This document shows, one piece after another, positions 23,865-35,109 of a stretch of DNA of 64,000 nt. Below the pieces are notes generated by a model. That model worked only from the letters and a program-made list of their open reading frames with translations. It did not search any database and had not been told where the DNA came from. This stretch comes from Ignavibacteriales bacterium (GTDB lineage Bacteria > Bacteroidota > Ignavibacteria > Ignavibacteriales > Ignavibacteriaceae): positions 1,839,448 to 1,903,447 of the forward strand of contig CP054182.1 in assembly GCA_015709675.1 (NCBI GenBank), written 5' to 3'. Made by a program: the position numbers and the translations under genes. The number at the start of each line of letters is the position of its first letter. Within the stretch, counting starts at the first letter, position 1.

Positions 23865-26800
23865 ATGAAAACTCACGTCCAAGGCAGACGGAAAAACGGT
23901 ATCTCCTCTGCAAAAGCTGAGGACCAGAAAATCAGGGTGTTTCAATACACCTCCCCGGCCGATTCAGTAAGGGAATTATTAGACTCTTTACCGCATTTTT
24001 CCCCGGCTTCTGATCAGGCAATTCTGCTTATATGCAGGAAGCAGTTAGTTACTGATTTACCCGGGCAACTTCCTTCAGGAATCAAACTGGGTGTGGATGC
24101 TGAAATACTTTCCGGGGCAACTGTTTATATTATTAAAGACTCTGACGGGTTTCAGGTCAGGGAAGGGAAACTTAGACTCACTTCAAAATCCACTTCCGAA
24201 AAGAATTCAAGATCATCACCGGAAAAACTCAGTAAAAGGGCAGAAACTCCTGCATTCTTCTCAGAGCTATCCAAATTTATACTCTATGAAAGTAGTGACT
24301 GGCTTCTGCTCGGTTCTGACCGACGGATAGAGTTTGCAGCTTCTTCAGCGGCAAAACTTCTCGGCTCTCCGGCAGAAAGTTTTTTGCACAAAGAAATAGA
24401 ATCACTCTTTCAGAAACAGGCAGTCTCATCACTCAGACAATGTATTAAGGGAAGCATAACATCGGGGAGAAAAACCAGGGGAATATTCCCTCTGAAGAAT
24501 ACATCTGAATCAAAGGAAGCCAAATATCTTGAATGTGTATTTCAGCGATTCTCAGCCGGCTTCAATGACAGTAAATTAATCGTAACTCTCCGGGACAGCA
24601 CTAAAGAAAAGATCGCAGAAAAAACTTACGAAGAGACACTGATAAAACTGAGGGAAAGAGTAAAAGAACAATCCTGTCTATACAGTATATCCTCTCTCGC
24701 CACGCAGAATCTGACAACCGGAGAACTTCTCAGTTCGGTTGTCTGTCTGATTCCTTCGGCGTTTTATTACCCAGAACGGACGTTTGCCCGGATACGGCTC
24801 GGCGGACAGGAGTATACATCAGAAAACGGCCCGGCAGCAGGCAAACACTTCAGGACAGAAAAAATTCTTGATGATAAAAAGCGGCTCTCCATTGAAATAT
24901 ATCTCAGGCAGGATAAATCCCCGAAAGAAAAAATTGATTTTCTTCCTGAAGAAAAGAAACTCATCGAATCAATAGCCTCAACTCTGGCTCTTATTCTGAA
25001 TCAGCTGTTCACGGCACAGCAGATGATTGAAAACCGGGACAGACTTACCAGTGTAATTGAAACTGAACCGGCATGCGTAAAAATCGTCTCGGCAAACGGT
25101 AAGCTCATCCACATGAATAACTCCGGTCTGAAGATGATTCAGGCAGAAAAAGCCGGTAAAAAATTATTCGGGACAGATGTATCTGCTCTTATTCTTGAAG
25201 AGGATAGACATATATACCGCAGCCTGCACAAAAACGCGCTGCGGGGACAGAAAGGTGAAGCGCGTTTCAGAGTTAAAGGACTTCGCGGTAAGATAGTCTG
25301 GATGGAGAGCAGCTCTGTTCCTCTCAGGGATGCACAAAACAGAATAACTTCCGTTCTGAGCGTGACGAGGGATATTACTGAACAGGTAAAGTCAGAAATA
25401 GAAATCAGGCTGCTGAATAAGGAACTGGAACTTCTTCTTCAGTCAAGCGGTGAAGGACTCTTCGGAATCAATCTTGAAGGCAATTGTACATTTATTAACG
25501 ATGCTGCTTTACGTCTTCTTGGTTATAAGAGAAAAGACTGTATCGGCAAAAATATGCACCAGCTGATTCATCATCACCGGATTGACGGCTCGTTATATCC
25601 GGAAGAAGAATGTCCGATATATCATGAAAATATCGGAAGCATCCGGACGGAACATACTGATGAAGTATTCTGGAAAGCGGACGGAAGTCCTGTGCCTGTG
25701 AGATTCTTTTCGAATCCGATTATTGATGAAGGCAAAGTAACCGGAGTTACTGTTACTTTTAACGATATCTCGGAACAGAAGCGGAAAGAACTTGAAATAA
25801 TCACCATAAAGAATAACACCGAAGCTTTAATTAACAGCACGGACGATCTGATCTGGTCAGTTGATAAAAACCACAAACTGATTGCGTGTAATGCTGCATT
25901 CCGGCAGCTGATAAGCAGAGTATCATCCGACGACATTAAACCTGGTGATCCGGTACTAAAGAAAATGGGATGCACGCCGGCAGAAAAGAAAATCTGGACA
26001 GGTTACCTGGAGGAAGTCTTCCGGGGCAAAGGTGTTGCGGTAGCCGCTGAAAAGGTAATCAGCAGGGATGATGCAATCCGTTCCCTGAACATGAATCCGA
26101 TATACAGTCCTTCGGGAAAAATTTTTGGTGCGGCCTGTTACAGCAAAAACCTGACGGAGGATATCAGGCGTGAAGAGATGCTCGAAAAAACCAGAAATTC
26201 CCTCAAAAGAGTTTTTGATCAGTCAATTGATGTGATTTGCACAGTGAATGAAGAGGGCTGTTTTGAACTGGTCAGCAGCGCTTCAGAACAGGTTCTGGGA
26301 TATCTTCCTCAAGAACTTAGCGGAAAACATTATTCTCAATTTGTGCATCCGGCTGATCTGAAGAGGACTGATGCAATTGTTAAAAAGATAATTTCCGGAA
26401 AAATCATCAGGAATTTCGAAAACAGATATATCCGGAAGGATGGTTCTGAGATTCTTGTTAACTGGTCAGCAGCATGGGATGAAGATGATAAACTGATGTA
26501 TTGCGTTGCACGGGATGGTACTGAGGTGAGAGAAGCTCAGGAGAAAATACTTCTGAGTGAAAGCCGGTTCCGGAATCTGGTGCAGGAAGCAACGGATTTA
26601 CTTGCTATCCTTACTCCTGACGGAATCTATCAGTATGTCAGCCCGACAACCATAAAACTGCTTGGCTGGACACCTGAGGACTTCATCGGAAAAAATGCGT
26701 TCGAGTTCATTCATGAGGATGATAAAGAACGGACGTTGAATCAGTTTAAGAAACTTTCCGGTTCAAGAAAGCTGAAGTTTGAACCGTTCAGGTTTAAGCA

Positions 26801-29800
26801 TAAAGACGGTTCATGGAGATGGATTGAAACGACGGCGACAAATCTTCTTGATGAACCCTCAGTCATGGGTATAGTGGCGAACTCACGGGATGTGACTGAT
26901 GAGGTGATTTACCGGGAGGAACTTAAAAAGTCGGAAGAAAAGTACCGTATGCTTTTCCGTAGCAGTCCGTTTCCGAAATGGCTTTATGATATCGAGACTT
27001 TCCAGATGCTGGACGTAAATGAAACAGCGCTCAGGCATTACGGGTACAGCAGGGAAGAATTTCTTAACCTTACGATTCTTGATATTCGTCCTGATTCTGA
27101 GGTTTCCAAAGTTATTGAAGCACACAGGAATTTATCGGATAAACCCGGCAGGATTGATTTCGGACAGTTTGTCCATAAGAAAAAAGATGGTACACTTATT
27201 CAGGTTACCGTTACCGGGCACAGGATTGAATATAATAACCGTAACTGCATTATGGTGGTAATCATGGATACCACCGAAATTGAACGCACAATTAAACTGC
27301 TCAAGGAAAAAGAGCAGCAGCTGCGGTTTGCACAGAAAATGGCAAAGCTGGGATATTGGAGTATCTCCGTTGCTGACGGAAAAATAACCTGGTCAGATGA
27401 CGTTTATGATATATGGGGTTTGGATAAAAACACGTTCGAGCCCACAATTGAAAATGTCATGGAACTGATACCTGAGGGAAGCAGAACAAAAGGTATGCTG
27501 GAGTATTATCAGTTTTTTAACAGCGGGGAGCCATTAGATACGGTGCACAGAATAATAATGAAGGATGGTTCCGTTAAATGGCTCCGGCAGATTGGTGTGC
27601 ATCTGACGGATAACGACGGAAATCCTCTTGCGATCGCGGGAACCGTGCAGGATATAACTGAGCAAAAACTGAATGAACTGCACCTTGCGGAAATCAATGA
27701 ACGGTATATTCATGTTACAAAGGCAACTTCTGACGCAATATGGGACTGGAATCTTCTGACAAATAAAATATTCTGGGGTGAGGGTTTTCATACCATATTC
27801 GGCTATGACTCTGAAAACGCCGAGCAGGATTTTTCCTCATGGAACAGCCGTGTTTATCCTGATGACATAGAGCCGGTATCCAAAAGCCTACACGATGTTA
27901 TTGAGGGAAGTGGATATATATGGGTGGAAGAATACCGATTTCTGAAAGCAGACGGTACTGTTGCTTTTGTGTTGGACAAGGGGATTGTCATCAGGGATGC
28001 AGACGGCAAGGCTGTGAGGATGGTAGGAGCCATGCAGGATATCACCAAACAGAAACTTGAGATGCAGCATCTGCGGCTTCTTGAGTCTGTAATTACCAAT
28101 GCCAATGACAGTGTGATGATTACCGAAGCTACATCTTCGGGCAAAGAGGGGAGAAAAATATTATATGTTAATAAGTCTTTCTCCAGGATGACCGGCTACT
28201 CTGCTCAGGAAATAATCGGTAAAACTCCTGCAATATTTCATGGCCCGAAAACCGATAAAAAGATAGTCAGCCAAATTTCGGAGAAACTCAGGAGATTTGA
28301 ACCGGGTGAATTTACTCTGATTAATTATAAAAAAAGCGGAGAGGAATACTGGCTTAATCTTTCACTCAGTCCGGTTTCTGATGAAAAGGGAAACTTTACC
28401 CACTGGATTGCAATTGAAAGGGATGTGACTGAAAGAAGAGATGAAGAACTTCAGAAATGGATATTTGCTGAGATAAGCGGACAGTTCGGCAAGGAAAAAA
28501 ATCTGAAGAACTCCATCCACTCCGTTCTTGAATTATTTGTGAGGCATACCGGGCTTACATTTGCCGAGGTCTGGCTGCTGCATTCCGATAAAAAGAAGAT
28601 GATCCTTACTTCTCAATATTCTGATGACGCAAAGATCGAAATTGAGTTTTTCAGGCCGAATACCATTAAATCACTTTCGTATGGAGAAGGACTTCCCGGC
28701 AGAGTATGGGCAAGCGGGGTTATTGAATACTGGGAAAATCCTGATTCAATCAGGGAATTCCCAAGATTTGAATTTGCGATGAATGCAGGGATAAAAAACA
28801 TTTTCGGTATTCCGCTGATTGCCAATAATGAAGTAATAGGGGTGTTTCTTGCGGGAATTCCGAATGTACCTGAGCGAAAACATTTCTTCGCGAACATCTT
28901 TTCCAATCTGACGGTGCATCTCGGAACTGAAATAAAAAGAAAGCAGCTTGAAGAAGATCTCAGACAGATTTTTGACACCGCGCCTGATATTATCTGTATT
29001 GCCAACGGAAACGGATTTTTTACCAAAATTAACCCGGCAGCATGTGAATTACTCGGATATACGGAGCACGAGTTATTGTCAATTCCTCTCTTTAACTTTG
29101 TGCACAAGGATGATCTCACCAAAACAGCGGAAACGCTGCAGGGGCTTATTGACGGTGAACCGGTAATTTATTTTGAGAACAGATATATAACAAAATCCGG
29201 ATCGGTGAAATGGCTCGCCTGGACGGCCGCTCCCGCTTCTGAATCCGATCTGGTTTTTGCAGTGGCAAAGGATATCACCGATAAAAAGAATCTTGAAGGA
29301 AGTTTTGAAAAAGCCATGAAACTGGCAAGGATGGGGAGCTGGGAGTATGATATACCTTCTGATAAACTGTACTGGTCCCAGATTACAAAAGAGATTCACG
29401 AGGTGCCTGAAAAATTTGAACCTGATATCGCTTCGGCAACAGGATTTTACCCGGAAGGAGAAGACCGTGACAAAATAATCAGATCCATGAGGATTGCACG
29501 GGAGAAAGGCGAACCGTGGGATATTGAACTCCGCATTGTAACAGCCAAAGGAAAAGAAAAATGGGTAAGAACCATTGGGGAGGCAGAATTTGCAGGCAGT
29601 CAGTGTATAAGACTTTACGGAAGTTTTCAGGATATAGATGCAAGAAAACGTGCTGAACGGGATTTCCAGAAAACACTCATTGAGAAAAATGAAATTCTTG
29701 AGAGTATTGAAGATGCATTCTTTGCGGTTGACCGTAACTGGAAGATTACCTACTGGAACCGTATGGCTGAAAAAGTACTCGGAAAAACCAAGGAGCGGGT

Positions 29801-31157
29801 TCTTGGCAGAAATCTATGGGCTGAGTACTATGACGCGATAGGAACGCCATTCTATAGTAATTATCATGACGCGATGAATGAAAACAAGCCGCGGCATTTT
29901 GAGGCGTATTATGAGCAGCTTGATGCCTGGTTTTCTGTTTCAGTTTTCCCTTCAGAGCGTGGTCTTTCTGTATATTTTAAGGATATTACTGAAAAGAAAA
30001 AAGCAGAAGAGGAGATACGGCTCAGTAATGAACGCTACAGGATGGTTACCGCGGCAACAAACGATGCTATCTGGGATTGGGATATAAAAAACAAAAAGGT
30101 CTTCTGGGGTGAAGGTTTTGAACGGATCTTCGGGCTGAATCTGAAATTGATCCCTGATACCATTTCAGGAAGGAAAAACTTTACACATCAGGAAGACTGG
30201 GATGATCTGGATCTGGAAATTGACCGGGCGATAGCCAATCCTGAAGTTTTGCATTGGGATTATGAATACAGAATACAAAAGAGCAGCCGTACGTTCGCGT
30301 TTGTCTATGACCGGGCGATTATTATCCGTGATGAAAACGGTGAAGCAGTAAGGATGGTTGGCGCTGTGCAGGATCTGACTGAGCGTAAAAAGTATGAAGA
30401 ATCTCTCAAAATGCTGAATGAAAATCTTGAGCAGTATGCCAGAGAGCTTTCCATTTCCAATAAAGAGCTTGAACAATTTGCTTATGTGGCTTCACATGAT
30501 CTTCAGGAACCGCTCAGAATGATAACCAGTTTTCTTTCACAAATCGAAAAGAAATATTCACCTATCATTGATGAAAGGGGTAAAACTTATATAAAATTTG
30601 CCGTGGACGGAGCAAAACGAATGCGTCAGATAATTCTCGAACTGCTTGACTTCTCCCGCGTTGGCAGAACGGAAGAAAAACTTGAGGAGTTCTCGGTTTC
30701 TGAAGTTATTGATGAGATACGAGCACTTTACAAGAAAAGCATAGAAGATAAGAATGCGCGTATTGAGTATGGAAATCTTCCGTTTATCGTTGCGTACAAA
30801 ACCCCTGTCCGGCAGGTGCTGCAAAACTTAATTAGCAATTCACTCAAGTACAGCAAAAAAGATGTACCGCCTGAAATCACAGTTACCGTTGAGGAAATGG
30901 ATATACACTGGCAGATTTCAGTTGCCGATAATGGCATTGGCATTGACCCTGAGTACTTTGAAAAGATATTCATCATTTTTCAGAGACTGCACAGCAAAGA
31001 TGAATATTCCGGAACCGGAATGGGGCTTGCCATCTCCAAAAAGATTGTCGAAAATCTGGGAGGGAAAATCTGGCTTAACTCTGAGGAGGGGAAAGGTGCT
31101 GTATTTTATTTTACTCTGAGAAAGCAAAATAAAAATGAAATTCTGGAACAGCTATAA
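23865..31157 (+). CDS. Giant multi-PAS/GAF sensor histidine kinase
   Basis: A 2430-residue protein with no signal peptide or membrane helix, so probably cytoplasmic. By eye it holds about fourteen PAS domains and two GAF domains (about residues 270-385 and 1535-1690), then a kinase core. The domain linkers carry the usual DITE/RDVTE motifs with coiled-coil ends. Dimerisation motif VASHDLQEPLRM has the phospho-accepting His at 2211. The ATPase domain has N box NLISNSLKYS, G1 VADNGIGIDPEY and G2 GTGMGLAISKK. Residues about 20-107 resemble a decayed CheB methylesterase domain without its Ser/His. The gene leads an operon with another kinase and three receivers. Ligands of the PAS domains are unknown. 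Confidence 0.9.
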   Translation: MKTHVQGRRKNGISSAKAEDQKIRVFQYTSPADSVRELLDSLPHFSPASDQAILLICRKQLVTDLPGQLPSGIKLGVDAEILSGATVYIIKDSDGFQVREGKLRLTSKSTSEKNSRSSPEKLSKRAETPAFFSELSKFILYESSDWLLLGSDRRIEFAASSAAKLLGSPAESFLHKEIESLFQKQAVSSLRQCIKGSITSGRKTRGIFPLKNTSESKEAKYLECVFQRFSAGFNDSKLIVTLRDSTKEKIAEKTYEETLIKLRERVKEQSCLYSISSLATQNLTTGELLSSVVCLIPSAFYYPERTFARIRLGGQEYTSENGPAAGKHFRTEKILDDKKRLSIEIYLRQDKSPKEKIDFLPEEKKLIESIASTLALILNQLFTAQQMIENRDRLTSVIETEPACVKIVSANGKLIHMNNSGLKMIQAEKAGKKLFGTDVSALILEEDRHIYRSLHKNALRGQKGEARFRVKGLRGKIVWMESSSVPLRDAQNRITSVLSVTRDITEQVKSEIEIRLLNKELELLLQSSGEGLFGINLEGNCTFINDAALRLLGYKRKDCIGKNMHQLIHHHRIDGSLYPEEECPIYHENIGSIRTEHTDEVFWKADGSPVPVRFFSNPIIDEGKVTGVTVTFNDISEQKRKELEIITIKNNTEALINSTDDLIWSVDKNHKLIACNAAFRQLISRVSSDDIKPGDPVLKKMGCTPAEKKIWTGYLEEVFRGKGVAVAAEKVISRDDAIRSLNMNPIYSPSGKIFGAACYSKNLTEDIRREEMLEKTRNSLKRVFDQSIDVICTVNEEGCFELVSSASEQVLGYLPQELSGKHYSQFVHPADLKRTDAIVKKIISGKIIRNFENRYIRKDGSEILVNWSAAWDEDDKLMYCVARDGTEVREAQEKILLSESRFRNLVQEATDLLAILTPDGIYQYVSPTTIKLLGWTPEDFIGKNAFEFIHEDDKERTLNQFKKLSGSRKLKFEPFRFKHKDGSWRWIETTATNLLDEPSVMGIVANSRDVTDEVIYREELKKSEEKYRMLFRSSPFPKWLYDIETFQMLDVNETALRHYGYSREEFLNLTILDIRPDSEVSKVIEAHRNLSDKPGRIDFGQFVHKKKDGTLIQVTVTGHRIEYNNRNCIMVVIMDTTEIERTIKLLKEKEQQLRFAQKMAKLGYWSISVADGKITWSDDVYDIWGLDKNTFEPTIENVMELIPEGSRTKGMLEYYQFFNSGEPLDTVHRIIMKDGSVKWLRQIGVHLTDNDGNPLAIAGTVQDITEQKLNELHLAEINERYIHVTKATSDAIWDWNLLTNKIFWGEGFHTIFGYDSENAEQDFSSWNSRVYPDDIEPVSKSLHDVIEGSGYIWVEEYRFLKADGTVAFVLDKGIVIRDADGKAVRMVGAMQDITKQKLEMQHLRLLESVITNANDSVMITEATSSGKEGRKILYVNKSFSRMTGYSAQEIIGKTPAIFHGPKTDKKIVSQISEKLRRFEPGEFTLINYKKSGEEYWLNLSLSPVSDEKGNFTHWIAIERDVTERRDEELQKWIFAEISGQFGKEKNLKNSIHSVLELFVRHTGLTFAEVWLLHSDKKKMILTSQYSDDAKIEIEFFRPNTIKSLSYGEGLPGRVWASGVIEYWENPDSIREFPRFEFAMNAGIKNIFGIPLIANNEVIGVFLAGIPNVPERKHFFANIFSNLTVHLGTEIKRKQLEEDLRQIFDTAPDIICIANGNGFFTKINPAACELLGYTEHELLSIPLFNFVHKDDLTKTAETLQGLIDGEPVIYFENRYITKSGSVKWLAWTAAPASESDLVFAVAKDITDKKNLEGSFEKAMKLARMGSWEYDIPSDKLYWSQITKEIHEVPEKFEPDIASATGFYPEGEDRDKIIRSMRIAREKGEPWDIELRIVTAKGKEKWVRTIGEAEFAGSQCIRLYGSFQDIDARKRAERDFQKTLIEKNEILESIEDAFFAVDRNWKITYWNRMAEKVLGKTKERVLGRNLWAEYYDAIGTPFYSNYHDAMNENKPRHFEAYYEQLDAWFSVSVFPSERGLSVYFKDITEKKKAEEEIRLSNERYRMVTAATNDAIWDWDIKNKKVFWGEGFERIFGLNLKLIPDTISGRKNFTHQEDWDDLDLEIDRAIANPEVLHWDYEYRIQKSSRTFAFVYDRAIIIRDENGEAVRMVGAVQDLTERKKYEESLKMLNENLEQYARELSISNKELEQFAYVASHDLQEPLRMITSFLSQIEKKYSPIIDERGKTYIKFAVDGAKRMRQIILELLDFSRVGRTEEKLEEFSVSEVIDEIRALYKKSIEDKNARIEYGNLPFIVAYKTPVRQVLQNLISNSLKYSKKDVPPEITVTVEEMDIHWQISVADNGIGIDPEYFEKIFIIFQRLHSKDEYSGTGMGLAISKKIVENLGGKIWLNSEEGKGAVFYFTLRKQNKNEILEQL

Positions 31158-32487
31158 ATACACTGTTATAAAGAATTGCACTGAATCGGTAACGGAAGAA
31201 TACACCAACCGGTATTGGGGTAATGTGCTGTTCAGTAATCTGATTCTTTATCTTCTTCCGTTCAGCATCATTGCTATCATACCCGGTGTTATTTTCAGTT
31301 TTCTCACGGGATTTATTATGATGGGAATAATTGACTGCCTTATTCTGATTTTTCTGATTCACCTCGCTTTGTATCCGGGATTCTCAGTTGAAACCAGAAA
31401 AAATCTTCTCATATTATGCTGTTACTTTGCTTCAGCAGTTTTGATACTGATGATTGGCGTTCGCGGACCCGGTCTGACCTATCTGGTGATTACCACAGTA
31501 ATCTTTGTCCTGATTTTTCCTGGAAAGAATGCTTATCTGCCTTCCTGGGTGAATACGATAATAATTGCCGCTATGACAGGACTGATTCTTCTGGGTGAAT
31601 TCAAATGGGATTATCAGGAAGTTCCGGAAGCAGGGCACTGGATTGCGGTAGCATCAAATAATATATTTCTGAGCTTTGCACTTTCAGCGTTTGTACCGAA
31701 AATATTTCTGGGCATTCAGAACGCGATAGACAATCAGCTGCGGCTTAAATCGCAATTAGAGGAAAAAGAACGGTCACTCTCCTTAGCACTTGCTGAAGTG
31801 GAATCAAAAAACCAGGAGATAGCGGAGTTTGCAGTTATCGCTTCACACGATCTGAAAGAACCTCTCAGAACCGCGGTATCGTTATCGGAATTAATCATAA
31901 AAAAGTATTCTGCAAATCTTGAACAGCAGATTATCAAATTGCTAAATCTAATTATTTCCAGCGCGCGCAGAGGTATTTCGCTTACTGAAGATTTACTGGA
32001 TTATTCCAGAATCTACCGTGAAAGCGGTGAAAGCACTCTGATAGATACCAATAAACTGGTACATGAAGTAGTCCGTCATTTTAAAACTACCGGGGAAAGT
32101 CGGGATATTCAATTTACCATATCTGATCTGCCCCATGTATACGGAAGGGAAAATGCACTGCACAGGATGTTCTATAATCTGATTGGCAATAGTATTAAAT
32201 ATGCCCGGCCTGATGTCAGACCGGAAATCAGCATTTCTGCGCGTGATACCGGTGCTGCAATTGAGTTTTCAGTTTCGGATAACGGTATTGGCATAGAAAA
32301 AGAGCATCTTGGTGATATTTTTCGTATATTTAAAAGATTACACACACGTGAGGAAATAGATGGGACTGGTGTAGGACTCGCTGCATGCAAAAAGATTGCT
32401 GAACAGCATGGTGGTGCTATCTGGGCGGAGTCTCAGCGCGGATGCGGTACGGTTTTTTATTTTACCATAGCAAAAAAGAAGGAATAA
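31135..32487 (+). CDS. Membrane sensor histidine kinase
   Basis: A 450-residue kinase with about six hydrophobic segments between residues 30 and 205 (first LFSNLILYLLPFSIIAIIPG, last NNIFLSFALSAFVPKIFLGI), a coiled coil (about 205-235), a dimerisation domain with IASHDLKEPLRT (His 238), and an ATPase domain with NLIGNSIKYARP, VSDNGIGIEKEH and GTGVGLAACKK. No periplasmic sensor domain of any size is present, so the membrane segments themselves may sense. The start lies 23 bases inside the giant kinase gene, showing tight coupling. Its core resembles that of the giant kinase, so the two may share receivers. Confidence 0.9.
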   Translation: MKFWNSYKYTVIKNCTESVTEEYTNRYWGNVLFSNLILYLLPFSIIAIIPGVIFSFLTGFIMMGIIDCLILIFLIHLALYPGFSVETRKNLLILCCYFASAVLILMIGVRGPGLTYLVITTVIFVLIFPGKNAYLPSWVNTIIIAAMTGLILLGEFKWDYQEVPEAGHWIAVASNNIFLSFALSAFVPKIFLGIQNAIDNQLRLKSQLEEKERSLSLALAEVESKNQEIAEFAVIASHDLKEPLRTAVSLSELIIKKYSANLEQQIIKLLNLIISSARRGISLTEDLLDYSRIYRESGESTLIDTNKLVHEVVRHFKTTGESRDIQFTISDLPHVYGRENALHRMFYNLIGNSIKYARPDVRPEISISARDTGAAIEFSVSDNGIGIEKEHLGDIFRIFKRLHTREEIDGTGVGLAACKKIAEQHGGAIWAESQRGCGTVFYFTIAKKKE

Positions 32488-32490
32488 GAA

Positions 32491-32919
32491 ATGCAGCCAA
32501 AAAATATACTTCTGGTTGAGGATAACGAAGGAGATATTCTTTTGACTCTCGAAGGCCTGCAGGAATCCAATAAAGATCATAAGGTTGAAGTAGTTAAAGA
32601 CGGCAAGGCGGCCATAGATTATTTAAACCGGATCGGAGAATATGCAAACGCAAATTCCCCGGATCTTATCCTGCTCGATATCAATCTTCCGAAAAAAACC
32701 GGAATTGAAGTTCTTAAATATATAAAAACTTCAGAGGTATTAAAGCATATACCGGTTATCATGCTTACGACCTCTTCTTCCACTAATGATATTAGACAGG
32801 CATATCTGAATTATTCCAATTGTTATATCACAAAACCGGTTGAAGCAGATGATTTTATAAAAGCGGTCAATGAGATTGATAATTTCTGGACAGGACTGGT
32901 AAGTCTGAAACCTGTATAG
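32491..32919 (+). CDS. Single-domain response regulator, Rcp1 type
   Basis: A 142-residue stand-alone receiver. LLVEDNEGD holds the acidic metal site, LILLDINLP carries the phospho-acceptor Asp63, MLTTSSS the Thr/Ser switch and ITKPV the conserved Lys. The EDNEGD start and the extended loop before the Asp are typical of Rcp1-like receivers that serve multi-PAS or phytochrome-like kinases. There is no output domain, so it acts by phosphotransfer or protein binding. It follows the membrane kinase by three bases. Confidence 0.93.
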   Translation: MQPKNILLVEDNEGDILLTLEGLQESNKDHKVEVVKDGKAAIDYLNRIGEYANANSPDLILLDINLPKKTGIEVLKYIKTSEVLKHIPVIMLTTSSSTNDIRQAYLNYSNCYITKPVEADDFIKAVNEIDNFWTGLVSLKPV

Positions 32920-32923
32920 CAAA

Positions 32924-33946
32924 ATGATTAAGGATCCCAAAAAATACAACATTCTTATCGTTGAAGATAATCCGGGAGATTATGTTCTGATTGAGGATTA
33001 TCTGCACGAACTGATGATGAAACCGGAACTTATCCATGTATCAAATTTTTCTGAGGTAAAAAAGCTTACCAGCGAGGAAAAACCACGCGTTGATGTTGTG
33101 CTGCTTGACCTTACCTTGCCGGATAAACACGGGGAAAATCTGATAACCGAAATGCTTGCTCTCTGCGGAGATGCACCGGTTATTGTCCTCACGGGATATT
33201 CTGATTTTTCTTTCAGTATAAAGTCACTCAATCTGGGAGCAGCAGACTACCTCTTAAAGGACGAACTTTCCGCTTCAACCTTATATAAAAGTATCGTTTA
33301 CACCATTGAGCGCAAGCGTTTTCTTATTGATCTGGAAGCCTCGGAAAAAAAATACAGAGACCTCTTTCATCTGAGCCCTACCCCAATGTGGTTCTATGAT
33401 ATTGTGACGCTGCGGTTTCTGGATGTAAATCAGGCGGCGGTACAGCATTATGGTTACAGCAGGGAAGAGTTTCTCTCCATGACCATCAAAGATATCCGTC
33501 CTCCGGCAGATGTGGCAAAACTTGAAGCTGTGCTTTCTGACAGAAGTGTTAAGATAACCTATCAGAATATCTTCCGGCACACAAAGAAGAACGGCGAAAT
33601 TATTCATGTTGATATCTATGGTGCGGCAGTGGAGTTTGGTGACACTCATGCCCGTGTAATTGCCGCGAATGACATAACTGACAGAATTAATTATATATCA
33701 GCCATCGAAAAGCAGAATGAAAAGCTCAGAGAAATTGCCTGGCAGCAGTCTCATATCGCCCGTGCACCGTTAGCCCGCCTGATGGCTTTAACGGCGCTGC
33801 TCAGGGAAGAATTTGTATCTGATGAAGATGGGAAAATGGTTTTGCAGGGAGTATTAAACTCCGCATTTGAACTGGACGATATCATAAAGGATATTGCGGC
33901 TAAATCTGCCGCAATAAACATTGAAAGGCCTGAAAATGAAGTTTGA
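32924..33946 (+). CDS. REC-PAS protein with His-containing DHp helix but no ATPase domain
   Basis: A 340-residue protein: receiver (1-125, VLLDLTLP with Asp62), linker, PAS (about 140-260) and a final helical pair. The last part, WQQSHIARAPLARLMAL, resembles a histidine-kinase dimerisation domain with His277 and the conserved Pro, followed by a second helix (KMVLQGVLNSAFELDDIIKDI). The gene stops there, without N, G1 or G2 boxes. It may accept or relay phosphate as a Spo0B-like intermediate, or dimerise with the neighbouring kinases. The PAS is very close to one PAS of the giant kinase (YDI, DVN, HYGYSREEFL, DIRP motifs shared). Confidence 0.85.
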   Translation: MIKDPKKYNILIVEDNPGDYVLIEDYLHELMMKPELIHVSNFSEVKKLTSEEKPRVDVVLLDLTLPDKHGENLITEMLALCGDAPVIVLTGYSDFSFSIKSLNLGAADYLLKDELSASTLYKSIVYTIERKRFLIDLEASEKKYRDLFHLSPTPMWFYDIVTLRFLDVNQAAVQHYGYSREEFLSMTIKDIRPPADVAKLEAVLSDRSVKITYQNIFRHTKKNGEIIHVDIYGAAVEFGDTHARVIAANDITDRINYISAIEKQNEKLREIAWQQSHIARAPLARLMALTALLREEFVSDEDGKMVLQGVLNSAFELDDIIKDIAAKSAAINIERPENEV

Positions 33947-34337
33947 AGTGATGCTTGTGGATGATGATGATATGGTGCTGTTTGTCATATCAAGATATAT
34001 AAGAAAGTCAGGGCTCTCCCTGAACCCGTTAAACTTCAGGAACGGGCAGGAGGCATTAGATTATATAACTGCACATCAGGATCCGGGAATGAATTTTATA
34101 GTCCTGCTGGATATAAATATGCCGGTCATGAACGGCTGGCAGTTTCTTGAAGCGGTTAAAGATCATGAAGTTGCACAAAGAATCCGGGTTGCCATGGTTA
34201 CTTCATCGGTTGATTTCGAAGACGCAGACCGGGCCAAAACATTTCCGATGGTGGTATCGTATCTCATTAAGCCGGTTGATACTGATATGCTTGCATCATT
34301 AAAGAAGGTCCCGCAGCTTCAAGAGTTTTATAACTGA
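33936..34337 (+). CDS. Single-domain response regulator
   Basis: A 133-residue receiver from the ATG at 33936, which overlaps the upstream gene by eleven bases; an ATG five codons further upstream is possible but less natural, since family members begin MxxxxMLVDDD. LVDDDDMVLF forms the acidic pocket, IVLLDINMPVMNGW carries Asp59, AMVTSS is the switch, and YLIKPVD has the conserved Lys. It has no output domain. It ends the signalling operon and may be a terminal acceptor in a relay from the upstream kinases. Confidence 0.92.
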   Translation: MKFEVMLVDDDDMVLFVISRYIRKSGLSLNPLNFRNGQEALDYITAHQDPGMNFIVLLDINMPVMNGWQFLEAVKDHEVAQRIRVAMVTSSVDFEDADRAKTFPMVVSYLIKPVDTDMLASLKKVPQLQEFYN

Positions 34338-34343
34338 GTATAT

Positions 34344-34492
34344 AAACCTCACCCCCTGCCCCTCTCCTTGGGAAGGAGAGGGGAGTGTGGAAAATGAATA
34401 TGAAAATCCCTCTCCTTGGGAAGGAAAAGGGAGTAAGAATCTGTATTTAGAAGTCTGCCTCCTGTTTAAGGAGAAGGGTTCAGGATGAGGTT
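34344..34492. repeat. Degenerate copy of palindromic CCTCACCC...GGTGAGG element
   Basis: Starts AAACCTCACCCCCTGCC, holds a CCCCTCTCCTT-GGG-AAGGAGAGGGG hairpin (34360-34384) and a second diverged hairpin (about 34408-34434), and ends with a decayed GGATGAGGTT. It lies directly after the signalling operon and may also act as its transcript end. Confidence 0.7.
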
Positions 34493-34548
34493 GATCCTGG
34501 CGGCTGGGGCTAAGAAATAAACGGATTGGTTGTATGTATACAAACCTC

Positions 34549-34644
34549 ACCCCCTGCCCCTCTCCTTGGTAAGGAGAGGGGAGCATAGAATTTCACTTTA
34601 AAAGTCCCTCTCCTTTTTGAGGAGAGGGATTTAGGGTGAGGTTT
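34549..34644. repeat. Intact palindromic element with terminal inverted repeats
   Basis: About 96 bases with inverted ends AAACCTCACCC and GGGTGAGGTTT. Inside are two perfect hairpins, CCCCTCTCCTT/AAGGAGAGGGG and CCCTCTCC/GGAGAGGG. The right end reads into the DUF559 gene: that protein's last codons and stop (ETSP, stop) are repeat sequence. Confidence 0.75.
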
Positions 34645-34990
34645 CTTGCTCCGTTAAAAGCGATTGTATTTTATCCTCCACTGCCTTCATTACCTTATCC
34701 ATATCATTCATAATCTCCTCATTCTTTATCCGCAAAAATCTGATACCGTATGCTTCTATGTGCTTCTGTCTTTCGGCATCGTATTTCTTCTGATCTTCCT
34801 TTTCATGTATTCCTCCGTCAATTTCAATGGCAAGTTTCAGGGAGGGGCAATAGAAGTCAATGACGTAAGAATCCACTGAATACTGTCTGCGGAATTTCTG
34901 CCCCTTGGTATTCCTGCTCCGCAGGAAAATCCACATTAGCTTTTCGAACTCTGTTGTTTTAACCCGCAGGTCACGTCTCCGGTCTTTCAT
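34631..34990 (-). CDS. DUF559 (Vsr-like) endonuclease-domain protein
   Basis: A 119-residue protein from the ATG at 34990 (the frame is open to a TTG at 35017). It has the DUF559 pattern of small PD-(D/E)XK-like nucleases related to very-short-patch repair: TEFEKLMWIFLRSRNTKGQKFRRQ, then YVIDFYCPSLKLAIEIDGGIHE with the presumed metal-binding Asp and Glu, then AYGIRFLRIKNEEIMND. The final four codons and the stop lie inside a palindromic repeat that recurs just downstream. The family's role is not established. Association with such repeats suggests, as inference, involvement in their spread or excision. Confidence 0.85.
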   Translation of the reverse strand: MKDRRRDLRVKTTEFEKLMWIFLRSRNTKGQKFRRQYSVDSYVIDFYCPSLKLAIEIDGGIHEKEDQKKYDAERQKHIEAYGIRFLRIKNEEIMNDMDKVMKAVEDKIQSLLTEQETSP

Positions 34991-35109
34991 CTCTATTTTG
35001 TTAAAATGCAGCGTCAATAATAACCATCCTTCTTATAAAAGTAAACATGCTAAATCATCTGCACAATTCAAAAGACCCGGAACTAATATATATTACTAAC
35101 TCCTGATTA

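Follow-up and report, generated by a model that had tools for sequence, protein, structure and literature searches.

REPINs are inverted doublets that occur in many copies. In the REP/REPIN-RAYT systems, as set out in the available portions of PMC3733652 and PMC8266576, short tagged hairpins are present in many copies, a small gene lies between inverted copies and some copies reside inside genes, all of which resembles the arrangement described here. A second resemblance is to the Rickettsia palindromic elements (RPEs), which, according to the accessible text of PMC10969869 and PMC2229807, are palindromic, about 100-150 nt long and located in frame in conserved protein genes; the latter source, in the same portion, poses the question of how such small mobile sequences move. 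DUF559 is a widespread protein family of unknown function, and the available part of PMC12308824 places it alongside a transposase in recombining repeated segments of Legionella. In searches of the open-access PMC literature, no accessible text connected DUF559 with such repeats or with in-frame insertions. We analysed a window of 64,000 nt (the whole stretch of DNA under consideration) from an Ignavibacteriales genome and followed one of its loci into other genomes, where hairpins and DUF559 genes often form a package which, as judged from sequence, appears to be a form of mobile DNA not described in that literature.

The complete palindromic element of the window spans 34542..34644 of the forward strand (103 nt) and has paired ends, AAACCTCACCC and GGGTGAGGTTT, around two hairpins in the manner of a REPIN-like doublet. 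Hairpin 1 (34557..34581, forward strand) has the stem CCCCTCTCC and the loop GGAGAGGGG, and hairpin 2 (34606..34628, forward strand) has the stem CCCTCTCC and the loop GGAGAGGG, followed by ATTTA and the tag GGGTGAG. Folded as single-stranded DNA, the element reaches -31.8 kcal/mol with a z-score of -7.1, which none of 200 shuffles equals. A degenerate tandem copy of about 150 nt (34344..34493, forward strand) lies upstream; it starts with the same AAACCTCACCC end, its right arm is decayed and its right end reads GGATGAGGTT, it aligns to the complete copy over 93 nt at 81% identity with a spacing of 198 nt in a repeat search, and its DNA fold has a z-score of -3.6. The DUF559 gene (PF04480), which encodes a Vsr/EDxHD-like nuclease of 128 codons with a TTG start, occupies 34631..35017 on the reverse strand and overlaps the terminal repeat of the element at 34631..34644; since the codons E-T-S-P and the stop correspond to 34631-34645, the stop and the final codons lie inside that repeat. 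A sequence-only reading made earlier had described a two-hairpin element with palindromic ends, a degenerate neighbouring copy and a DUF559 gene ending inside the element, and all of these are borne out, although the span it assigned to the feature (34344-34990) merges two tandem copies with most of the gene.

On the 5' side of the window gene no second element end was seen by eye or by repeat search, the element being on the 3' side only. At other places in the genome, the complete element is represented by partial copies only, the best of which are at 1452984-1453026 and 627523-627564 (each 95%), and copies are present in many further genomes of the window's family. Twelve copies of the small elements were aligned, the alignment being too ragged for a pair count, and an Rfam scan at the window returned only matches below the family thresholds. 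An empty counterpart of the window locus was looked for in G249, the only congener found, whose contig starts between the counterparts of prmA and the DUF559 gene. A 95-codon open frame at 34299-34586, which consists mainly of element sequence (MLPSPYQGEGQGVRF...) and has no Pfam match, is probably spurious. The neighbouring region 23865-34337 holds a 2430-residue frame that by eye resembles a multi-PAS histidine kinase; after it come a second kinase-like frame and three that look like response regulators, likewise judged by eye.

The window protein matches DUF559 (PF04480) with an E-value of 6e-30 and 103.7 bits against a curated cut-off of 20.6, and PF03852, the Vsr domain, is not among its matches at an E-value of 0.001. 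The residues E25, D54, E65, D67, H71 and D80 are conserved, those invariant across 25 aligned DUF559 domains including E25, D54, E65, H71 and D80, and on our reading of the alignment they appear to constitute an EDxHD motif. A profile search with DUF559 retrieved 3hrl (E-value 4e-33) and the homing endonuclease I-Bth0305I (3r3p; E-value 2.6e-6). The same two structures rank first in a Foldseek search with the AlphaFold2 model (pLDDT 84; I-Bth0305I at an E-value of 1.3e-4), with weaker matches to PvuRts1I, AbaSI and Vsr (1cw0; TM-score of 0.57 on the query, E-value 0.26). The NCBIfam vsr model matches two of the seven DUF559 inserts that were scanned alone (see below), far under its cut-off.

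The genome that holds the window (4.21 Mb, one contig) has three PF04480 matches, namely the window gene, one at 840097 and a weak one at 650171. The second DUF559 gene (G000:C1:840097-840417; L002, L242) is preceded by four tagged hairpins in tandem and followed by one in inverted orientation. These repeats are of a different family, ACTCACCC...CCCTCTC on one side and inverted GAGAGGG...GGGTGAGTT on the right, which gives most of the motif matches listed for this genome. The stretch inspected around the weak match at 650171, where a true Vsr gene is placed at 649895-650113, has no such repeat. Another true Vsr gene, at G000:C1:1981154-1981366, lies about 550 nt from a repeat of the second family, possibly by chance, because Vsr loci in general are without such repeats. 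The tag-hairpin unit GAGAGGG-N3-8-GGGTGAG, hereafter the motif, occurs 31 times in this genome, its reversed control not at all, and was found in 52 of 148 genomes of the window's phylum. The reversed pattern has 26 matches in seven of the 148 genomes; G123, in which the true pattern is absent, accounts for 14 of these matches. At an E-value of 1e-8, DUF559 is present in 33/52 genomes with the motif versus 30/96 without it (Fisher p 2e-4). The genome-level co-presence is thus moderate; 19/52 motif genomes have no DUF559 match at this E-value. G022 and G086 have 26 and 24 motif matches, respectively, without DUF559 at that E-value, and their repeats may be either orphans or served by another enzyme. 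Y1 transposase genes are found in 91 of the 148 genomes.

At the level of individual loci, DUF559 genes adjoin such hairpins far beyond chance, and they do so in many bacterial groups. The set considered comprises the best 80 of 579 confirmed DUF559 loci on genome contigs; the query behind it included repeat-bearing members, and the flanks had no role in the search. The exact motif lies within 250 nt of DUF559 at 48 of these best 80 of 579 loci, where the 85 matches amount to 2.17 per kb, roughly 120-fold more than the 0.018 per kb measured at 7-10 kb, against one match of the reversed motif. A slightly looser motif was found at 49 of the best 80 of 579 loci, representing 11 of 16 taxon labels (one label being an unresolved genus), with 25/42 loci in Pseudomonadota, 9/9 in Chloroflexota and 5/12 in Bacteroidota. 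In a motif-free test, the best inverted match between the 250-nt flanks of the domain was compared with that of up to 40 equally spaced pairs of segments from the same locus, and the flanks beat all of their own controls at 51 of the 66 testable loci among the best 80 of 579, where about 1.6 would be expected. The same test was passed by 12 and failed by 7 of 19 loci of the phylum, mostly embedded in longer frames (L055 was omitted as identical with L079), and passed by 13 and failed by 6 of 19 stand-alone loci hand-picked from the DUF559 list of the phylum, a twentieth having been dropped for too short a flank. Altogether, 70 of the best 80 of 579 loci have the motif or inverted flanks, the other ten comprising seven that failed and three that were not testable; among close relatives of the window DUF559, one of three has inverted flanks. 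Matches in direct orientation are likewise above chance (37/66 and 5/19), as is expected because the hairpins are themselves palindromic. Thus, the association with similar repeats that the sequence-only reading had put forward is strong, and these flank measurements exclude that the repeats lie far from DUF559 genes elsewhere.

A typical flank arm is a hairpin carrying a G-rich tag; one flank may read CCCCCTCCGACGGAGGGGGTAAGGGGGTGGGT, for example, and the opposite flank an inverted near copy of it. Some copies (L274, L262) have a second small hairpin between stem and tag, whose sequence differs between the two sides while its pairing is kept. We compared gene families of the window's phylum by the same inverted-flank score at a threshold of 14, with 30 loci per family before those too short were dropped. 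Inverted flanks were found at 17/25 of the best DUF559 matches (5/30 dropped) and at 13/27 Y1 transposase loci (3/30 dropped), there with sequences other than the motif, and at none of 28 true Vsr genes (2/30 dropped); the off-centre controls gave 1/50 for DUF559, 0/54 for Y1 and 0/56 for Vsr. Therefore, the test detects flanks of other sequence around Y1 genes and none around Vsr genes. The looser motif within 300 nt was present at 5/25 DUF559, 0/27 Y1 and 0/28 Vsr loci. The strict motif was dropped as sole criterion, 5/25 of the DUF559 loci being recovered by even the looser motif versus 17/25 by the motif-free test, because the copies in this phylum have variant tags such as GCCTCCCC, GCCCCACC and GGGGTGGGT.

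The position of the window gene, with its end inside the repeat, recurs. Outside the 25 embedded loci discussed below, the motif lies within 250 nt 3' of the domain at 18 of the remaining 55 of the best 80 of 579 loci, and at 15 of these 18 it begins before the stop codon; four of the 15 overlapping frames (L096, L123, L133, L141) extend for at least 90 residues. G132 has the layout of the window, with three tandem 206-nt units, the 3' end of DUF559 in the third and two further copies beyond. The E. coli gene ycjD also ends within a repeat; translated from two strains, its product terminates in ...LSPSPQPSP or ...RSPSP. A 40-nt piece of the ycjD repeat is found in 4959 of 5426 genomes, at a median of 15 places, with none for the reversed control. 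Both the 15 of 18 judgeable loci and ycjD exclude an overlap unique to the window, which the sequence-only reading would have taken as grounds for giving up its proposal. The form of the terminal repeat of ycjD (L301, L304, L305; sapF-fabI) varies among E. coli strains. E. coli EC21, where ycjD is not annotated, was considered as an empty ycjD site and rejected: an efflux gene cluster fills the interval between sapF and fabI, which is therefore a replacement and not an empty site.

Hairpin-DUF559-hairpin units are also present in frame within LeuRS (at two sites), MetH, RecG, PriA, HrpA, ValS, MetG, BioA and HsdR. Among the DUF559 places listed for the phylum, 23 are inside open frames of at least 600 codons, and at 25 of the best 80 of 579 loci the open frame extends for 80 residues or more in both directions from DUF559; the motif or inverted flanks were found at 23 of the 25. 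The residues that border an embedded DUF559 are the translated hairpin, such as PSPSGRGxGGEG before the domain and LTPTPLPEGEG after it. An NCBIfam scan of 16 of the 25 embedded loci placed nine above the curated cut-off of a host family, namely HrpA (L072, L077), MetH (L076, L082), ValS (L081), PriA (L085, L129), MetG (L098) and BioA (L136), five below the cut-off and two (L075, L094) with DUF559 only. All seven scanned frames of the phylum exceeded the cut-off, as MetH, LeuRS (L062 and L063 at one site, L054 at the other), RecG (L067, L068) and HsdR (L057). The long frame of L070 reads as a C-terminal fusion and has no element peptides. One of the hosts, valine-tRNA ligase, carries its in-frame DUF559 element in a Rickettsiales genome (L081:9281-12490), which invites comparison with the RPEs. 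Judged from the sequences, and with the structures of the host proteins as background, the insertion sites are probably loops or linkers. Insert and host form one open frame, and the seven inserts (149-186 residues), scanned alone against Pfam and NCBIfam with E-values up to 1, matched only DUF559, related nuclease or chance-level models and no intein model; no group I or group II intron was detected at Rfam thresholds in seven loci. The inserts evolve under constraint, with the nuclease frame and its key residues maintained: their dN/dS is 0.10-0.31 in seven of eight pairs, values that are rough because synonymous sites are near saturation. The constraint on the hosts is stronger (dN/dS of 0.025-0.095 in the four of eight pairs where it could be computed, with dS near saturation).

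Occupied and empty sites can be compared at RecG and LeuRS. In the genus of G084 (61 genomes), three RecG genes are filled, 55 are empty with the break at the identical place, two are partial and one has no match. All 27 empty loci fetched have a five-residue loop without the repeat, e.g. KLWKKNDVPPHVLVMTATP, where the filled site reads KLWGKASPNPSRRGE...LPSGEVGGAVPPHVLVMTATP. The four filled genes, one of them from another genus (G103), are spread over a quick 31-row RecG tree, which requires four changes, two of them forced by starred branches, gain and loss not being distinguished. G179, for instance, is filled and its close relatives G159 and G170 are empty; flank divergence between G179 and its empty near relatives is flat, with no co-conversion tract, which neither supports nor refutes homing by gene conversion at RecG. 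Inspection by eye showed no target-site duplication at either RecG or LeuRS, where one of 1-2 nt would escape notice. Empty sites in relatives, which the sequence-only reading had suggested looking for, thus exist for the DUF559-bearing form at both RecG and LeuRS, and the view that the repeats are never polymorphic is excluded for that form only.

In the family of G080 (41 genomes), the LeuRS site is filled in two, matched on either side in 36 and not reached in three. The 30 LeuRS loci fetched comprise the two filled ones, 23 with a short loop, G229 with a longer loop without a hairpin, and four further cases. The insert of G122 (L195), 136 residues long, looks unrelated; it matches a nuclease weakly and Pfam does not identify it as DUF559, and therefore some sites may simply tolerate insertions. 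G215 (L209), which stops short of this site, carries a DUF559 insert at the second one in LeuRS. At the site itself, G238 (L194) and G228 (L208) carry, in frame, a tagged hairpin without the gene, CCCCTCTCCTCTGGAGAGGGCCGGGGTGAGGC and GTCCTCTCCTCCGGAGAGGATTTAGGTGAGGC, respectively, oriented like the right end of the G080 insert; these may be remnants or short-form insertions. This LeuRS loop is a hot spot for insertions. Both as a tandem array and as scattered copies, the end sequences of the G080 insert, GCCCCACC...GGTGGGGC, are found again at other places in G080, and in the two genomes examined in this respect, G080 and that of the window (at its second DUF559 gene), short copies share their ends with the gene-bearing copy.

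We consider it probable that these units are a family of mobile elements in which a Vsr/EDxHD-like nuclease, with catalysis predicted from homology, propagates the hairpins that flank it. The autonomous form would consist of a hairpin with its G-rich tag, the DUF559 gene and a second tagged hairpin in inverted orientation, and the short forms would be hairpins without the gene, either single and tagged or in two-hairpin doublets as in the window. DUF559, a putative minimal nuclease of the Vsr/EDxHD type with a PD-(D/E)XK-like fold, most likely recognises the tagged hairpins in extruded or single-stranded form; it would cut at the tag, thereby releasing or priming a copy for insertion elsewhere. 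Thus it is presumably the nuclease that does the moving, with hairpin cleavage as the step, and the short gene-less copies would be moved by it in trans. Many copies are located at gene ends, with the last codons of the nuclease gene inside the repeat, and others are inserted in phase in conserved proteins and presumably translated with them. This account fits because hairpins and gene are found together at filled sites and are both absent from most unfilled ones, and because gene-less hairpins occur at a known insertion site in LeuRS. Of the sequence-only reading, in which a Vsr-like nuclease recognises or mobilises the hairpins, the association, the 3' overlap and the empty sites stand, but it overlooked that the gene is carried in frame inside conserved protein genes. 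A broader claim, that DUF559 proteins including E. coli YcjD mobilise a multi-phylum class of elements, which persist unspliced in essential enzymes and leave gene-less coding hairpins, strikes us as quite possible while falling a little short of probable.

Some observations count against the mobile-element reading: the ten of the best 80 of 579 loci with neither motif nor inverted flanks, the 19 of 52 motif genomes without DUF559 and the window gene itself, with an element on its 3' side only. The phylum loci that fail the motif-free test (7/19 and 6/19), the close relatives of the window DUF559, of which one in three has inverted flanks, and the RecG site, where neither a target-site duplication nor a co-conversion tract was seen, likewise weigh on that side. 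The same 19 genomes would suit a relationship in which the repeats are the target, DUF559 being a free-standing homing-type nuclease that inserts in or beside pre-existing hairpins spread by other means. Its homology to the EDxHD homing endonuclease I-Bth0305I is in keeping with such a role, as are the gene-less hairpins in two LeuRS relatives, which may be a pre-insertion state or, equally, a remnant. We nevertheless regard it as unlikely, given that each of the 27 empty RecG loci fetched has its five-residue loop only, that only a plain short loop is present at 23 of the 30 fetched LeuRS loci and that the inserted units contain no other recognisable domain. It is distinctly improbable, in our view, that DUF559 is a resident Vsr-like enzyme of DNA repair whose gene end merely happens to coincide with hairpins serving as terminators or as binding sites for proteins. 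True Vsr genes do not have inverted flanks (0/28), the same hairpins flank DUF559 in mid-frame in other proteins, and the RecG site is filled in some congeners and empty in others, though the hairpins do overlap the 3' ends of genes and the accessible text of PMC12907096 links VsrA of Caulobacter, a DUF559 protein, to solitary 5mC methylation.

Ordinary REP repeats spread by Y1 transposases (RAYT/TnpA-REP), with DUF559 as a passenger, would look similar, as they too have tagged hairpins, inverted doublets and a gene between inverted repeats, and Y1 genes are frequent in the same genomes (91/148); with the motif at 0/27 Y1 loci and Y1 inverted flanks of a different sequence, we hold this to be very improbable. 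It is scarcely credible that the in-frame copies are inteins or self-splicing introns with an EDxHD homing endonuclease, even though the available part of PMC9403480 reports DUF559 domains in Thermosynechococcus inteins, since no intein model was found in seven inserts (Pfam and NCBIfam, E-values up to 1) and no group I or II intron in seven loci (Rfam thresholds), and insert and host read as a single open frame.

If DUF559 is what drives this large family of palindromic repeats, a class of mobile DNA that has so far stayed hidden would become testable in E. coli K-12, and the question on the movement of small sequences posed in the available text of PMC2229807 would gain a concrete candidate enzyme. 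Should the broader claim be true, coding palindromes of the Rickettsia type could be gene-less relatives of the units, giving a candidate enzyme for a long-standing puzzle. The in-frame copies show that a nuclease-bearing element can reside in RecG, LeuRS or MetH with the host frame intact, as an alternative to intein splicing. For annotation, stretches such as PSPSGRGxGGEG or LTPTPLPEGEG in annotated proteins are likely element sequence, a DUF559 within a tRNA synthetase is an insertion and not a domain of the enzyme, and frames built from element sequence, like that at 34299-34586, may be annotated as genes in other genomes.

In comparison with the known systems, the REP-RAYT layout of tagged hairpins inverted around a small gene is found at most, not all, DUF559 loci. 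The enzymes differ, RAYT being an HUH/Y1 tyrosine transposase and DUF559 a Vsr/EDxHD-like nuclease by homology, and so do the tags, which are GTAG or CGTC and unpaired in REP sequences and GGGTGAG or a variant such as GGGGTGGGT here; moreover, Y1 genes are not linked to the DUF559 motif (0/27), and the DUF559 gene itself occurs in frame in other proteins. In-frame palindromes of the RPE type, compared by description, have counterparts in the DUF559 units and in the gene-less LeuRS form. However, RPEs, as described in the accessible text of PMC10969869 and PMC2229807, come without a nuclease or a named mobilising enzyme, whereas the DUF559 units bring their own nuclease domain and do so in many bacterial groups. 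The nuclease domain is homologous in sequence and fold to that of I-Bth0305I, but DUF559, with 128 residues only, lacks a separate DNA-binding domain and showed no intron or intein in the inserts and loci scanned, and its units have hairpin ends and many unrelated insertion sites. Vsr has a distantly related fold, but Vsr genes of the same phylum have no hairpin flanks (0/28). As in MITEs with an autonomous partner, short and gene-bearing copies share their ends within one genome, in both of the genomes examined.
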